Assembly: GCA_013694695.1 (NCBI GenBank)
Contig: JACDBX010000191.1
Coordinates: 1-45,961 of the forward strand
Reading direction: 5' to 3'
From: Gemmatimonadales bacterium
Lineage (GTDB): Bacteria > Gemmatimonadota > Gemmatimonadetes > Gemmatimonadales > GWC2-71-9
DNA length: 45,961 nt
Position numbers and translations under genes: made by a program
Notes under the pieces: model-generated
Database searches by the model: none
What the model was told of the DNA's origin: nothing
The model's input: the letters and a program-made list of their open reading frames with translations, nothing else
Part shown: positions 5,726 through 39,179 of the stretch, in pieces
Layout of the letters: each line of letters starts with the position of its first letter
Position numbering within the stretch: the stretch's first letter is position 1

Positions 5726-7497
5726 GAATCCTCGATGGTGGTGGCCAGGCCGAGCGCTGCGAGATCGGCGGCAGCGACCTTCGTGGGGGCGCCTTCCAGC
5801 AGTGCGCGGGCGGCTGCCGTCTTCGGGAACGCGATCACGTCACGCAACGACGGGGCGCCGGCAAGCAGCATCGCGATCCGGTCGAAGCCGAGCGCGAAGC
5901 CTCCGTGGGGTGGTGCACCGGAACCGAGCGCGTCGAGCAGGAAGCCAAACCGGCGGCGCTGCTCCGCGTCCTCGAGCCCGAGGGCACGAAACACCGTTGC
6001 CTGGAGTGTCGGGTCCGTGATGCGAATCGAGCCCGAGCCGAGCTCGTTCCCGTTGTACACCGCGTCGTAGTGGAGCGCGCGGCAGCGTCCCGGGTCGCTC
6101 TGGACGAATGGAATGTCATCACCATGTGGTGACGTGAACGGATGATGGGTGAACACCCATGTGCCCGTTTGCGGCTCCTGCTCGAACAGCGGGAAGTCGA
6201 CCACCCAGCAGAACGCGTGCGCGGTCGTTGGCGTGATCTCCGGGCGACGCGTCAGCAGCGTGCGCACCGCGTGCAGCGCCGGGTTCGTGACCCTGTCAGG
6301 CCCGGCCACCGCGAGGACCAGGTCGCCGGTCACGCCCCCGACACCCTCGAGCGTTCCGGAGCCGAGCGCCTTGACGCCCTGACCTTCCCATCCGCCGTCC
6401 GACCGCCGCGCCCAGAGCAGTCCCCCGGCACCGGCAGCGCGCGCCGCATCGGCGAGCGTGTCGATCTCCTTCCGGCTGAATGCGGCGCCACCCGGAACCC
6501 TGATCATCCGCAACCGGCCGCCCGCCCCCAGGGCGTCCACCACGAACGGCGCGGCATCCACGCCGCGACTTGCCGTGACGTCGTCAATCTCGAAGCCGTA
6601 ACGAAGGTCGGGCTTGTCGATCCCGTAGCGCTCCATCGCCTCTGCATGCTGCAGCCGCCGGAACGGAATGGAGACGTTGTGTCCCGCCTCCGCCCAGAGA
6701 TCGTGCAGGACCCGCTCGACCACCGCCAGGATGTCGTCCTGCGAGACGAATGAGGCCTCAAGATCGATCTGGGTGAACTCCGGCTGACGATCCGCGCGCA
6801 GGTCCTCATCGCGAAAGCACCGCGCGATCTGGAAATAGCGATCGAAGCCTGCAACCATGAGCAACTGCTTGTAGATCTGCGGCGATTGCGGCAGGGCGTA
6901 GAACTCGCCCGGATGCACGCGGCTCGGCACGAGGTAATCCCGCGCACCCTCCGGGGTCGGCTTGGTCAGGATCGGGGTTTCGATCTCGAGGAAACCGAGC
7001 TCAGTGAGCGTCCGCCGGGCCTGCTGCAGCAGGCCGTGCCGCATGACGATGTTCGCTTGCAGCTCCGGGCGGCGCAGGTCAAGGATCCGGTGCTGGAGCC
7101 GGAGTTCCTCGGATGCCATTTCCTCCCCGTCACGCCGGGCCACCGGAATCGGAGGGGTCTGCGCCGGACCCACCACCTTGAGCGAGTTCACCCTGACCTC
7201 GATTTCACGCGAGGTCATCGTTGTATCCCTTGCAGGTTCAACCCTTTGCGTCACAACGCCCTCGACGAGGACGACCGTCTCCGCACCGAGGTCGGCAGCA
7301 AGGGTCATGGCTTTTGAGGGGGTCCATTTCGGGTCGCACGAGAGCTGGACGAGGCCGTCGCGGTCCCGCAGGTCGAGGAAGACGATGCCGCCGAGATCCC
7401 GACGCCGATGGATCCAGCCGCCGAGGCGGACCGTTTCCCCGACCTCGGCCGCCGTGAGTGAACCGCAGCGATGTGTCCGGAATGCCGTCTGTGACAT
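5722..7497 (-). CDS. aspS: Aspartyl-tRNA synthetase
   Basis: 591 residues, the bacterial long form. The N-terminal OB fold (VRLGGWIHRRRDLGGIVFLDLRDRDGLVQL) binds the anticodon. The class II catalytic core has motif 2 (FRDEDLRADRQPEFTQID), a bacterial GAD insertion (about 290-420) and motif 3 (GGFALGFDRIAML). It charges tRNA-Asp in the cytosol. In the OB loop a Leu follows RRRD; non-discriminating enzymes that also charge tRNA-Asn often have His there. This single position leans toward a discriminating enzyme, but other positions and the presence of gatCAB or asnS would decide. The start ATG at 7495-7497 has a short CAGG ribosome site. The gene heads the minus-strand chain running down to meaB. 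Confidence 0.97.
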   Translation of the reverse strand: MSQTAFRTHRCGSLTAAEVGETVRLGGWIHRRRDLGGIVFLDLRDRDGLVQLSCDPKWTPSKAMTLAADLGAETVVLVEGVVTQRVEPARDTTMTSREIEVRVNSLKVVGPAQTPPIPVARRDGEEMASEELRLQHRILDLRRPELQANIVMRHGLLQQARRTLTELGFLEIETPILTKPTPEGARDYLVPSRVHPGEFYALPQSPQIYKQLLMVAGFDRYFQIARCFRDEDLRADRQPEFTQIDLEASFVSQDDILAVVERVLHDLWAEAGHNVSIPFRRLQHAEAMERYGIDKPDLRYGFEIDDVTASRGVDAAPFVVDALGAGGRLRMIRVPGGAAFSRKEIDTLADAARAAGAGGLLWARRSDGGWEGQGVKALGSGTLEGVGGVTGDLVLAVAGPDRVTNPALHAVRTLLTRRPEITPTTAHAFCWVVDFPLFEQEPQTGTWVFTHHPFTSPHGDDIPFVQSDPGRCRALHYDAVYNGNELGSGSIRITDPTLQATVFRALGLEDAEQRRRFGFLLDALGSGAPPHGGFALGFDRIAMLLAGAPSLRDVIAFPKTAAARALLEGAPTKVAAADLAALGLATTIEDS

Positions 7498-22462: not shown

Positions 22463-22469
22463 CTTGAAG

Positions 22470-22502
22470 TTCGGGTTACCTTCGGGTAGGTTGATTCGGG
22501 TT
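22470..22502. promoter_or_regulatory. Three TTCGGGTW direct repeats between trpC and lexA
   Basis: TTCGGGTT at 22470-22477, TTCGGGTA at 22481-22488 and TTCGGGTT at 22495-22502, in the 67-base spacer between divergent trpC and lexA starts. They include GTTC-N7-CTTC at 22469-22483, close to the GTTC-N7-GTTC LexA site of some proteobacteria. Autoregulation by LexA is one possible reading. If trpC starts at 22513, the repeats are coding instead. Confidence 0.35.
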
Positions 22503-22529
22503 CTCTTCGCCATCCGACCTGAGGCCATC

Positions 22530-23138
22530 GTGCCCCTGACCCGAAAGCAGCGCGAAATCCTCGATTTCCTCGGGGAAGTTATCGCCGACCACGGCTACGC
22601 ACCGAGCTTCGAGGAGATCGCCGAGAAGTTCGGTTATCAATCGTTGGCCACGGTACACGAGCACCTCACAAATCTCGAGCGCAAGGGGTACATCCGCCGC
22701 AGTTACAACGAAAGCCGGGCAATCGAGGTTCTGCCCCCGCGGGGCCTCACCGGCGCGACCGAGATTCCGCTGCTCGGAAACGTTGCGGCCGGGTACCCGA
22801 TCGAGTCGGTCATGACCGGCGATGTGGTGGCGGTCCCCGATGCGATGCTGCCCCGGCGCGGCGCCAACTATGCACTGCGCGTTCGCGGGGCGTCCATGAT
22901 CGACGAGCAGATTCTCGATGGCGACCTCGTCGTCGTGAACGGTCGAGAGAGTGCCGACAACGGCGAGATGGTGATCGCCCTGGTCAACGGCGCCGAAGCC
23001 ACCGTCAAGCGATTCTACCGTGAACCGGGTGGCTGGATCCGCCTCCAGCCCGCCAACACAGAGATGCGCCCTCTCCGGTATCAGGAAAACGATGTGCTGA
23101 TCCAGGGCATCGTGGTGGGCGTCATTCGGAAGTACTGA
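22530..23138 (+). CDS. lexA: LexA repressor, SOS regulator
   Basis: 202 residues from GTG at 22530 with GAGG 5 bases before it; the track extension upstream is antisense to trpC. The N-terminal winged helix is LTRKQREILDFLGEVIADHGYAPSFEEIAEKFG. The cleavage site is Ala87-Gly88 in LLGNVAAGYPIES. The catalytic dyad is Ser122 (RGASMIDEQI) and Lys160 (EATVKRFYRE). It represses DNA-damage genes and self-cleaves when bound to RecA filaments. The SMIDEQI context with Ala before Ser (usually Asp) is a mild variation. Its stop overlaps the end of the convergent trpD by 17 bases. Confidence 0.96.
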   Translation: MPLTRKQREILDFLGEVIADHGYAPSFEEIAEKFGYQSLATVHEHLTNLERKGYIRRSYNESRAIEVLPPRGLTGATEIPLLGNVAAGYPIESVMTGDVVAVPDAMLPRRGANYALRVRGASMIDEQILDGDLVVVNGRESADNGEMVIALVNGAEATVKRFYREPGGWIRLQPANTEMRPLRYQENDVLIQGIVVGVIRKY

Positions 23139-24186
23139 CCGACGCACTCCTGAGGTCTTCCAGGGTTGCGAGTGCCCGACCGGAATCGAGCGCAGCGTGA
23201 GCCATCTCGACCGCGTCCTCCATCGACTCCGCCTTACCGCTCACCAGGATGGCGGCGCCGGCATTCAGCACCACCGCGGCCCGCACCGCCGGCGGCGCCC
23301 CACGCGGCCGCTCGAATAGCTGGACGATCGCCGCCGCGTTCTCGGCGGGCTCACCGCCGGCGAGTCCCGCCAGCGAGTCAACGCGGAAGCCCAGCGTATC
23401 CGCGGACATCGTCCACTGACGCACGTCGCCGCCTCTCACCTCCCATATCATCGTTTCACCCATCGGGGCAATCTCATCGAGCCCCTCCACGCCGTGGACC
23501 ACCATCGCGTGGCGCGCGCCCAGGTGGGCCAGCGTGGTCGCCATCAATGCGCCCCGCCTGGGGTCGGCGACGCCGATCACCTGCCGGGTGGCTCCCGCCG
23601 GGTTCGCCAAGGGTCCGACGAGGTTCATGATGGTGGGTGTGCCGAGCTTGCGCCGAACCGCAGCGACGTGACGCATTGCCGGGTGATGGGTCGGGGCAAA
23701 GAGAAAGGCGATGCCGACCTCCCGCAGGATTCGTCCCGATTGGGCCGGGGTGGCATCGATCGAGACACCCATCGCCTCAAGTACGTCGGCGGAACCGGAA
23801 CGCGACGTGAAGGATCGGTTGCCGTGCTTGGCAACAGGGATGCCGGCGCCGGCCACGACGAATGCTGCGGCTGTCGAGATGTTCAGCGTCGTGACGGTTC
23901 CGCCACCGGTCCCGCAGGTATCGACCAGGGAGCCGGGATCGGAATGGTCCACGCGCTGCATCGTATCGCGCAGCGCCCTGACCGCGCCGGCGAGTTCCGG
24001 AGCCGACTCCCCCTTGTCCCGAAGCGCCACGAGCAGTGCTTCGGTCAGCACCGGATCTGTGGTGCCCCCGAGCATCTCGAGCATCGCAGCATGCGCGGCG
24101 GCTTCCTGCAGTCCTTGTCCACGCTCCGCCACGCTGATGGCGGCCCGGATCGCAGGCGTGTCGGAGAACGGCCGGGTTGTGGTCAT
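23122..24186 (-). CDS. trpD: Anthranilate phosphoribosyltransferase
   Basis: 354 residues. VDTCGTGGGTVTTLNIST, AKHGNRSFTSRSGSADVLEAMG and LGTPTIMNLVGPLANPAGATRQVIGV are the PRPP- and anthranilate-binding parts. The common GTGGDG loop reads GTGGGT here, losing the Asp. It joins anthranilate to PRPP. It is separated from trpC by the divergent lexA gene and so has its own promoter, presumably in the 100-base spacer shared with truA, where a 16-bp palindrome lies. No trpE or trpG is in the window. Confidence 0.95.
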   Translation of the reverse strand: MTTTRPFSDTPAIRAAISVAERGQGLQEAAAHAAMLEMLGGTTDPVLTEALLVALRDKGESAPELAGAVRALRDTMQRVDHSDPGSLVDTCGTGGGTVTTLNISTAAAFVVAGAGIPVAKHGNRSFTSRSGSADVLEAMGVSIDATPAQSGRILREVGIAFLFAPTHHPAMRHVAAVRRKLGTPTIMNLVGPLANPAGATRQVIGVADPRRGALMATTLAHLGARHAMVVHGVEGLDEIAPMGETMIWEVRGGDVRQWTMSADTLGFRVDSLAGLAGGEPAENAAAIVQLFERPRGAPPAVRAAVVLNAGAAILVSGKAESMEDAVEMAHAALDSGRALATLEDLRSASVSTSE

Positions 24187-24219
24187 GAAGCCGGCAAGCG
24201 TACGGGGACAGCCGGCGTT

Positions 24220-24235
24220 TTGTCAATATTGACAA
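24220..24235. promoter_or_regulatory. Perfect 16-bp palindrome, candidate operator between trpD and truA
   Basis: TTGTCAATATTGACAA is fully self-complementary and AT-rich in GC-rich surroundings. It lies 34 bases before the trpD ATG and 14 bases before the proposed truA -35 box. A dimeric repressor or activator site is likely. I cannot assign the regulator; it does not fit the E. coli PurR, TrpR or LexA boxes. Confidence 0.5.
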
Positions 24236-24248
24236 CACCTTACGCAAG

Positions 24249-24277
24249 TTGCCGCCCCTCCGCGAGCGGGCTAGATT
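24249..24277 (+). promoter_or_regulatory. Candidate promoter of the truA-htrA-pur chain
   Basis: TTGCCG at 24249-24254 and TAGATT at 24272-24277 are separated by 17 bases. The predicted start of transcription, near 24284, is within a few bases of the truA ATG, so the messenger could be leaderless or nearly so. Only sequence similarity supports this. Confidence 0.4.
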
Positions 24278-24286
24278 CAGGTGCTC

Positions 24287-25066
24287 ATGGAGCGTGTTTT
24301 CATGCTGGTCCTGGAGTATGACGGCACCCGGTTCTGCGGCTGGCAGTCGCAGCCGGACGGGCGCTCGGTGCAGCAGGCAGTCGAGGGTGCGTTTTCGCGG
24401 CTTGCTGGTGCGCCGACACGGGCCACTGCGGCGGGACGGACCGATGCCGGCGTCCACGCGCACGCGATGCCCGTGACGATCACCATGCCGGAGCGATGGA
24501 GCTGCGCCGAGCTGCAGCGCGCCGCGAATGCGCTGCTGCCGCCCGACATCGCTGTCCGGGCGGTGTACCCCGTTCAGAACGGCGGGAACGCGCGCCGCAG
24601 TGCACTCGGTCGTCGGTATTGCTACACCGTCGCGACGACCGAGGAGGCCCGCTCGCCGTTCCGGAACCGTCGCGCGTGGGCGCTCGCTCGGCCACTCGAC
24701 CTGGAAGCGATGCAACGATGTGCCGACCTGTTGCCGGGCCTTCACGACTTCCGGGCCTTCGCCGCAGTCGGCGAGCCAAAGCCCCACTATAGGTGCCACG
24801 TCACCGAGGCACGGTGGGAACACGACGATGACGGATGCGCCCGCTTTACCATCAGCGCCGACCGCTTCCTGCACCACATGGTGCGAATGCTTGTCGGCAC
24901 GATGGTTGACATCGGACTCGGACGACGACCGGAGGGCGACATGGCCCGCCTGATACAACTTGATCACAATGGGAACACCAGCCCGCCGGCACCCGCGGCG
25001 GGTCTTGCGTTCATGTCGGCAGGATATCCCGCCGAACTCGTCACCGGCAACGGGGTGTCGTGGTGA
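24287..25066 (+). CDS. truA: tRNA pseudouridine(38-40) synthase
   Basis: 259 residues from ATG 24287; GTG at 24281 and ATG at 24302 are alternatives. FMLVLEYDGTRFCGWQSQPDGRSVQQ and AAGRTDAGVHAHAM, with the catalytic Asp53, are clear TruA signatures, as is FRAFAAVGEPKPHYRC. It modifies uridines in the tRNA anticodon arm. It is the first gene of the plus-strand chain, and its stop overlaps the htrA-like start as GTGA. Confidence 0.96.
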   Translation: MERVFMLVLEYDGTRFCGWQSQPDGRSVQQAVEGAFSRLAGAPTRATAAGRTDAGVHAHAMPVTITMPERWSCAELQRAANALLPPDIAVRAVYPVQNGGNARRSALGRRYCYTVATTEEARSPFRNRRAWALARPLDLEAMQRCADLLPGLHDFRAFAAVGEPKPHYRCHVTEARWEHDDDGCARFTISADRFLHHMVRMLVGTMVDIGLGRRPEGDMARLIQLDHNGNTSPPAPAAGLAFMSAGYPAELVTGNGVSW

Positions 25067-33491: not shown

Positions 33492-34882
33492 ATGTGCGGC
33501 GTGATCGGCGTTTCCGGGATTCCCGATGCCTCGCGAGTGGCCTACCTCGGCCTCTATGCCCTGCAACATCGCGGGCAGGAGAGCGCCGGGATCGTCGCCC
33601 TCGATGCTGACGTTCGCGCCCGCATCCACCGCGTGATGGGGCTGGTCGCCGACGGCTTCGATGAATCGGTCTTTGCATCGCTCACCGGCGACGTCGCGGT
33701 CGGGCACACCCGATACTCGACTGCAGGAAGCACGGTGCTGGCGAATGCGCAGCCCTATCTCGTCAATTATCACGCCGGCCCACTTTCGGTCTCCCACAAC
33801 GGCAACATCGTGAATGCCGACGAGATCCGGGAGGAGCTGGTTCGCGACGGTGCGATCTTCTCGTCGAGCAGCGACACCGAGGTCCTGATCCACCTGATCG
33901 CGCGGTCCGACGCACCGGATGTCGAGGGTCAGATCCGCTCGGCGCTCGAGCGCGTCGATGGCGCCTGCTCGGTGGTGATCTCGGTGGGCCGCACGATCTA
34001 TGCAGCCGTCGACAGTCGGGGCTTCCGGCCAATGGTGGTCGGACGGCTCGGAGGTGGGATCATCGTAGCGTCGGAAACATGCGCGCTCGACCTCGTGGGC
34101 GCGGCGAGCATGTGCGAACTCGAACCCGGCCAGTTTGTACGCATCGAGGATGGTGAGGTCACCGACCTCGAGCCGCTGTCTCCGCGGCGGGTGACGCGCT
34201 GCATCTTCGAGCTGGTGTACTTCGCGCGACCCGACTCCACCATCTTCGGGCACAGCGTCGACCGGGTTCGCAGGGAGCTCGGGCGCCAGCTCGCCCGGTT
34301 CCACCCTGCGCCCGGCGCCGACGTGGTTTTCTCCGTCCCCGACAGCGCGAACGTGATGGCGCTGGGTTACTCAGAGACCTCCGGCGTCAAGCTGGAGCAC
34401 GGGCTGATCCGAAACCACTACGTGGGGCGCACCTTCATCAACCCCACCCAGGCGCTGCGGGTCGAGAAGGTCCGCATCAAGTTCAACCCCGTCCGCGAAG
34501 TGATCGAAGGCAAGAGCGTGGTCGTGATTGACGACTCGCTGGTGCGGGGCACCACGAGCAAGGGACTGGTCCGGATGATCCGTGCGGCCGGCGCTCGCGA
34601 GGTTCACCTCAGGCTGGGCTCACCACCGATCACCGGTCCGTGTCACTACGGTATCGACACCCCAAACCGCAATGAACTGATCGCCGCGACGCACTCGCCC
34701 GAGGAGATCCGCCAGTATCTCGGGGTCGACACCCTTGAGTACCTGACACTCGACGAGATGATCGACGCGGCCGGCCATGATACACCGTACTGTCACGCCT
34801 GCTTCTCGGGCGATTATCCCACCCTGGTCGAACTGACTTCATCGGCCGAACGCCGATCCTCCCCTGCCGTGGCGGTCCCCGC

Positions 34883-34886
<4 letters not shown>
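33492..34886 (+). CDS. purF: Amidophosphoribosyltransferase
   Basis: 464 residues. Cys2 directly after Met (MCGVIGVSG) is the N-terminal nucleophile after processing. YALQHRGQESAGI, VGHTRYSTAG and SHNGNIVNA form the glutaminase site, and VVVIDDSLVRGTTSKG is the PRPP loop. Cysteines in TRCIFELVYFARPDS, GPCHYGID and CHACFSGDYP match the iron-sulfur ligands of the Bacillus-type enzyme, so an oxygen-sensitive 4Fe-4S form is likely. It commits PRPP to purines. Unlike most Bacillus-type enzymes no long propeptide is seen. Confidence 0.97.
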
Positions 34887-38046: not shown

Positions 38047-39179
38047 TCCTGCCCGGCGGTACGCTCGGCGTCGTGGGCGGCGGCCAGCTGGGCCGGATGT
38101 TCACCGCCGAGGCGCAGCGCATGGGGTACCATGTGGTGGTGCTGGATCCGGATTCCGACGCACCGGCAGGACGGATCGCCGATAGGCACCTGGTACGACC
38201 GTGGACCGACCCCGACGCCCTCACCGACATGGGGGCAGCCTGCGACGCGATCACCACCGAGTTCGAAAACGTCCCCGCCGCGTCGCTTCGCGCGCTTGCC
38301 GCCCACGCACCGATCCGTCCATCGGCCGCGGCAGTGGCACCCACCCAGAACCGGATTGACGAGAAGGAGTTGCTGGCGTCGCTCGGCATCGCGGTCGGTG
38401 AATGGGCGCCGGTTCGCACGGCACGGGATCTCGACTCGGCGTGGCGCGTGGTGGGCAGCGGTCCGGCAGTCCTCAAGACCGCAACACTCGGCTACGACGG
38501 CAAGGGACAGCAGCTGATCGCGAGTGCTTCAGAGCTGGCACCGGCATTTGCCGCGCTGGGCGGGAAGGCTTGCGTGCTGGAGCGTCGGCTGGAGCTGGAC
38601 CGTGAGGTGTCGGTGATGGTGGCGCGCGGCGCCGACGGTAACGTTGTCACATGGCCGCTCGCGGGGAACGTGCATATCAATGGGATCCTTCATACATCGG
38701 CGGCGCCGGCCGACGTGCCAGAGGCGCTCAGCGCGGCCGCTCGCGACACAGCGACGACCATCATCACAGCGCTCGATTATGTCGGCGTGATGGGTGTGGA
38801 ATGTTTCGTGGTCGGTGGTGCGGTGCTGGTCAACGAGGTGGCGCCCCGCCCGCACAACAGCGGGCACTGGACCCTCGACGCGTGCGAGACCTCGCAGTTC
38901 GAGCAGCAGGTGCGGACGCTGGCCGGGCTCCCGCTCGGTACAACCGATGCCGTTTGTGCTGCGGTGATGGTCAATTTGCTCGGCGATCTCTGGCAGCACG
39001 GGCCGCCGCGGTGGGAACGGGCGCTCGCCGTCCCCGGCGTGAGGCTGCACCTCTATGGCAAGACCACCGCCCGCCCTGGCCGGAAGATGGGGCACCTCAC
39101 CGCACTCGGTCCGACCGGCGCAGAGGCGCACCGGAGGGCGATGGCGGCGTGGGGAATGCTGGCAAACTCGGACGACTAG
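38043..39179 (+). CDS. purK: N5-carboxyaminoimidazole ribonucleotide synthase
   Basis: 378 residues from GTG 38043. It is an ATP-grasp enzyme: [64 protein letters not shown] and [18 protein letters not shown]. It carboxylates AIR with ATP and bicarbonate. It ends the 14.9-kb chain. The TAG stop lies inside the perfect palindrome TAGCTCCGGAGCTA, and the next gene is convergent. Confidence 0.97.

Follow-up and report, generated by a model that had tools for sequence, protein, structure and literature searches.

Divergent sigma-70 promoters with back-to-back -35 boxes, pseudo-symmetric bidirectional promoters and the PurR operator of E. coli are the described systems closest to the region between trpD and truA of the Gemmatimonadales bacterium studied here. 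The site resembles divergent sigma-70 promoter pairs in its two outward-directed promoters, fixed spacing and shared middle, but adds an invariant extra element and transcripts predicted to be nearly leaderless on both sides. Pseudo-symmetric bidirectional promoters have divergent start sites 10-23 bp apart (PMC12825309). With these the trpD-truA site shares the symmetry of its sequence and the divergent transcription of functionally linked genes. In contrast to them, its predicted starts lie about 94 bp apart, and its -10 and -35 boxes are separate instead of overlapping. For the operator of PurR, a repressor of the LacI family, a box of the type CGCAA-N4-TTGCG has been printed (PMC4576408), and a similar dyad precedes the purine genes in one family of the relatives compared here (f3).

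The window, i.e. the whole stretch of DNA that was analysed (45,961 nucleotides), carries the 16-bp sequence TTGTCAATATTGACAA in the 100-bp gap between the divergent genes trpD and truA (Table 1). As the first-pass annotation had stated, this 16-mer is fully symmetrical (self-complementary across all 16 bp), AT-rich (12 of 16 bases are A/T) and located exactly there, between trpD and a purine gene chain. Profile matches confirmed the gene names, and we also counted the 13 genes it had given for the chain. The order is truA-htrA-purB-purC-psd-pssA-purS-purQ-purL-purF-ppdK-like-purE-purK, ending at 39179, and we infer a single transcript because the genes are closely spaced. For truA, the ATG at 24287 is conserved in the genus, and a GTG at 24281 was called mechanically. 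In some genera (L128, L131, L164, L167, L049, L056) the interval from truA to purB yielded no htrA relative. The nearest regulator gene detected beside the palindrome is lexA, which sits between trpC and trpD.

Table 1. Positions of genes, predicted promoter boxes and candidate elements around the trpD-truA gap of the window.
Feature	Position	Strand	Remarks
lexA	22530..23138	+	PF01726 at 22533-22721, TIGR00498; convergent with trpD
trpD, anthranilate phosphoribosyltransferase	23122..24186	-	TIGR01245, 1.1e-109; ATG at 24186
trpD promoter -10 TACGCT (predicted)	24197..24202	-	ATG of trpD (24186) follows 10 nt on
16-bp perfect palindrome TTGTCAATATTGACAA	24220..24235	.	axis 24227.5; all 8 pairs here and in one other genome (G009) only
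trpD promoter -35 TTGACA (predicted)	24221..24226	-	equals left palindrome arm TGTCAA; nearly all relatives keeping this arm have N18, then TANNNT
Symmetric array CAA-N6-CAA-N4-TTR-N6-TTG	24224..24251	.	covers the central element plus the -35 box on either side; sole match in window
Candidate truA-side operator GACAA-N4-TTACG	24231..24244	+	CAA, TT and CG invariant in the 27-genome alignment; kept without trpD or without left arm
truA-purine promoter -35 TTGCCG (predicted)	24249..24254	+	TTG invariant in the 27-genome alignment; TTGACC in f3
truA promoter -10 TAGATT (predicted)	24272..24277	+	conserved ATG (24287) follows 9 nt on
truA, tRNA pseudouridine(38-40) synthase	24287..25066	+	TIGR00071, 6.4e-45; heads the truA-to-purK chain
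purF	33492-34886		TIGR01134

A perfect 16-mer palindrome as such is not rare at the composition of the window: four were observed compared to a mean of 2.0 in 60 shuffles. The other three (at 7019, 33201 and 41635) are G/C-rich, and their number is within chance expectation. None of the 60 shuffles, however, yielded a perfect 16-mer palindrome with 12 of 16 A/T bases, and a perfect 16-mer fell inside the trpD-truA gap in 10 of 5000 shuffles. No further copy of TTGTCAATATTGACAA with up to two mismatches was found in the 2.8-Mb genome; with three mismatches there are four other sites, three of them within long reading frames and one on contig C50.

We searched 61 genomes for the 16-mer and for TruA, read the DNA before truA, and then extended the comparison to 288 genomes of the order. 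The palindrome is part of a 38-bp block of near-fixed spacing, which stands upstream of truA at every locus whose surroundings were read. Examples are CTTTTGTCAATATTCACAACGGTTTACGCGGGTTGCCG (G004), CTTTTGTCAATTGTGACAACGATTTGCGCGCCTTGCTC (G013) and, from a different family, GCTTTGTCAAATGCCGCAAGCACTTGCGTCGCTTGACC (G042). In 27 genomes the block aligns ungapped over 38 columns, with T3, A9, C17-A18-A19, T24-T25, C27-G28 and T33-T34-G35 invariant; within TTGTCAA (columns 4-10) the remaining letters reach at least 90%, and TTTTGTCAA is nearly invariant. Since TruA itself is only about 50% identical between the block-carrying genera, DNA free of constraint would not be expected to align in this way. 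Nine of ten congeners, the window genome included, carry the block upstream of truA (and of trpD where this is the neighbour), as do many other genera. A regulatory position, as supposed in the first-pass annotation, is thereby supported, and the lack of conservation before truA or trpD in close relatives that it had named as a refutation was not observed.

A sequence-only model of the block, run on the 61 relatives and then on the 288 genomes of the order, gave a strong hit in 54 of the 288, a single one in each genome except G023. The latter has two strong sites, on separate contigs that both contain truA. Apart from this genome, there was no second strong site elsewhere, neither in those of the 61 relatives that carry the block nor in the 288 genomes. 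At 15 of 15 newly read loci outside the training set, truA lies downstream and trpD divergently upstream; as these loci were picked by the block model, they confirm the context but not the sequence. Elsewhere, sequences similar to the palindrome or to one of its arms mostly lie within reading frames or stand isolated. The same applies for weak matches to the block model, which look like chance. No element was found before purH, a weak test because purH is mostly internal to operons. Thus several sites before related genes, as expected for the operator of a regulon, were not observed, and the proposal that the palindrome is a master operator finds no support as far as a multi-site regulon is concerned.

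Two further observations concern individual genomes. In G016, whose assembly yielded no truA, GTCAAATGCCACAAGCGCTTGCG (L359, G016:C339:17210-17233) lies between a divergent thioesterase-like gene and an LpxH-like one, both named by eye; the match has an E of 0.02 per genome, which is chance level over 61 genomes. In G036 of genus g28 (L164), TTGTCAAATAGTGACAACGAGTTGC runs directly into ATCTTT and the truA start. Here the truA promoter seems shortened, and truA may now be served by the former -35 arm of trpD. Nine further g28 genomes are without a strong block match, too.

The left arm of the palindrome, read on the minus strand, is a TTGACA hexamer, and together with TACGCT it gives TTGACA-N18-TACGCT, in agreement with a sigma-70 pattern of TTGACA, a spacer of 16-18 and TANNNT. 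This spacer is 18 in 22 of the 23 relatives scored. On the truA side, TTGCCG-N17-TAGATT agrees with TTGNNN, a spacer of 16-18 and TANNTT; the spacer is 17 in 27 of 31 genomes and 18 in the other four. Relatives show TAGATT, TATTTT or TAGGTT as truA -10 variants, with the start codon following 6-10 nt after the box. The predicted -10 boxes match the consensus only moderately, and a strict promoter scanner at its threshold flagged no promoter in the region. The right palindrome arm, considered as -35 box of truA, was rejected as no -10 box lies 16-18 bp away. From the predicted promoters, the mRNAs of trpD and of the truA chain are probably leaderless or nearly so. Control would then have to act at initiation, since leader-based control has no room. 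A riboswitch or attenuator leader was likewise rejected: the predicted leaders comprise a few nucleotides, and no Rfam element was found between 20000 and 42000.

If the palindrome were the true operator, a dimeric repressor bound to the dyad TTGTC-N6-GACAA would cover the trpD -35 box and modulate truA. The near-fixed spacing, an A/T-rich palindrome well above chance and the perfect symmetry in G000 (the window genome) and G009 speak for this. So does TTGTC-N6-GACAA itself, which most f1 genera other than the window's own have retained; an operator would account for this as well. However, all eight pairs about 24227.5 are found in G000 and G009 only. Other f1 genomes mostly retain 5-7 of 8 (2 of 8 in G020), and the more distant, f3-like genomes 2-4 of 8. 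The innermost pair is lost in six of the nine block-carrying congeners, which have CACAA or TTCAA as right arm, and in all f3 genomes.

Moreover, the two arms are lost independently of each other and not by matched changes. G010 and G015, in which trpD is not adjacent, have lost the left arm but retain the right arm and TTGCG, and the same holds for G020 and G002, in which trpD is still near. A point against reading the left arm as part of the trpD promoter is that G030, G044 and (altered) G040 keep it as well, without having trpD alongside. In G030 and G040 it abuts the T-run of an apparent terminator. In G044, in which no trpD was found in the genome, the old promoter remains, with TTGACA-N18-TACACT still facing lexA (L137). 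Several relatives moved trpD elsewhere, and truA kept its element; the relocated trpD copies have no block in front, and several follow an apparent trpG (read by eye). The role as -35 box accounts fully for the left arm, and the site is present in a single copy. The palindrome is probably not the functional unit, and we consider a palindromic operator rather unlikely. Of the earlier idea that the palindrome itself acts, the conservation of the block remains; the symmetry, restricted to two genomes, and the left arm, identical with the -35 hexamer, argue against it.

What is conserved on the truA side is an element of the consensus CAA-N4-TT(A/G)CG, whose upstream half is the right palindrome arm GACAA and which ends four bases before the truA -35 box. 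Its axis at 24237.5 is the exact midpoint of the two predicted -35 boxes. It is about this axis that f3-like genomes are symmetrical instead, in the form of CGCAAG-NN-CTTGCG. Together with both -35 boxes the element forms the array CAA-N6-CAA-N4-TTR-N6-TTG, which is better kept than the perfect symmetry and ungapped in the 27 aligned genomes; G019 and G036 have one extra base. In the promoter of lexA itself, no extra TTGCG was found upstream of the -35 box, so that the truA-side element is no general promoter feature.

It is possible, though somewhat doubtful, that RNA polymerase alone reads the site, with two promoters, CAA-N4-TTRCG serving polymerase contact or spacing, and no regulator. This would be consistent with the absence of another strong site from the genome and with the outcome of the search for candidate regulators, which beyond LexA and LacI/PurR revealed none. 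But the invariant CG at a fixed distance from the -35 box, absent from the lexA promoter, is hard to explain in this way. For the central element taken by itself, binding of a regulator and a plain role in polymerase contact or spacing appear to us about equally probable.

In f3 genomes the purine chain is preceded by CGCAAG-NN-CTTGCG, whose halves are spaced as in the PurR box of E. coli; this would fit an operator of a PurR-like repressor of the LacI family. In a profile search, however, most carriers of the element, including the near-complete genomes G009, G006, G005 and G040, had no LacI-family protein at all. The site differs from the E. coli operator also by the single strong copy per genome and by a left half that is degenerate in the window's family. 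We rejected a LacI/PurR operator and regard this assignment as very improbable.

Binding of LexA is suggested by the position of its gene, which in almost every relative adjoins trpD or truA. But upstream of lexA nearly all relatives have direct repeats of the form TTCGG-N6-TTCGG, and nothing similar was found at 24200-24280 of the window. It is thus highly unlikely that LexA binds the trpD-truA site. The repeats upstream of lexA (22465-22529 in the window; L202-L231) usually occur as two tandem pairs and are missing in G029. They are likely the LexA box of the order, and their 11-bp period is that of the alphaproteobacterial GTTC-N7-GTTC.

We consider it probable that two closely packed divergent promoters, with a small candidate operator between them, make up the site, and not a palindromic master operator. 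In this arrangement the left hexamers, TTGACA and TACGCT, would drive trpD, and the right ones, TTGCCG and TAGATT, the truA-purine chain; their use as promoters is suggested by the letters and their spacing. The CAA-N4-TT(A/G)CG element would occupy the centre between the -35 boxes. The palindrome may then be a side effect of a -35 box that borders on the truA-side element, made perfect by the local sequence in two species. A regulator bound to the central element, if there is one, would first of all act on the purine promoter; by its position it could also block trpD. Geometrically, trpD and the purine chain could be controlled together. As trpD and purF both use PRPP, a coupled control of tryptophan and purine synthesis through this compound, to which the first-pass annotation had already pointed, is possible, too. 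The array might even be the single genomic target, throughout the order, of a putative regulator that senses the status of purines or PRPP and balances trpD against truA-purK (including purF) at the shared divergent promoter, but we regard this more specific proposal as unlikely.

The trpD-truA site is ordinary in kind. Its anatomy replaces the story of a palindrome, as predicted promoter bases, a conserved truA-side element and the true axis can now be told apart, and the case shows that a -35 box beside another element can mimic an operator. Should the central element be read by a regulator, a single site would control the larger part of the purine pathway in a group that has received little study, and a tryptophan gene would lie on its other side.
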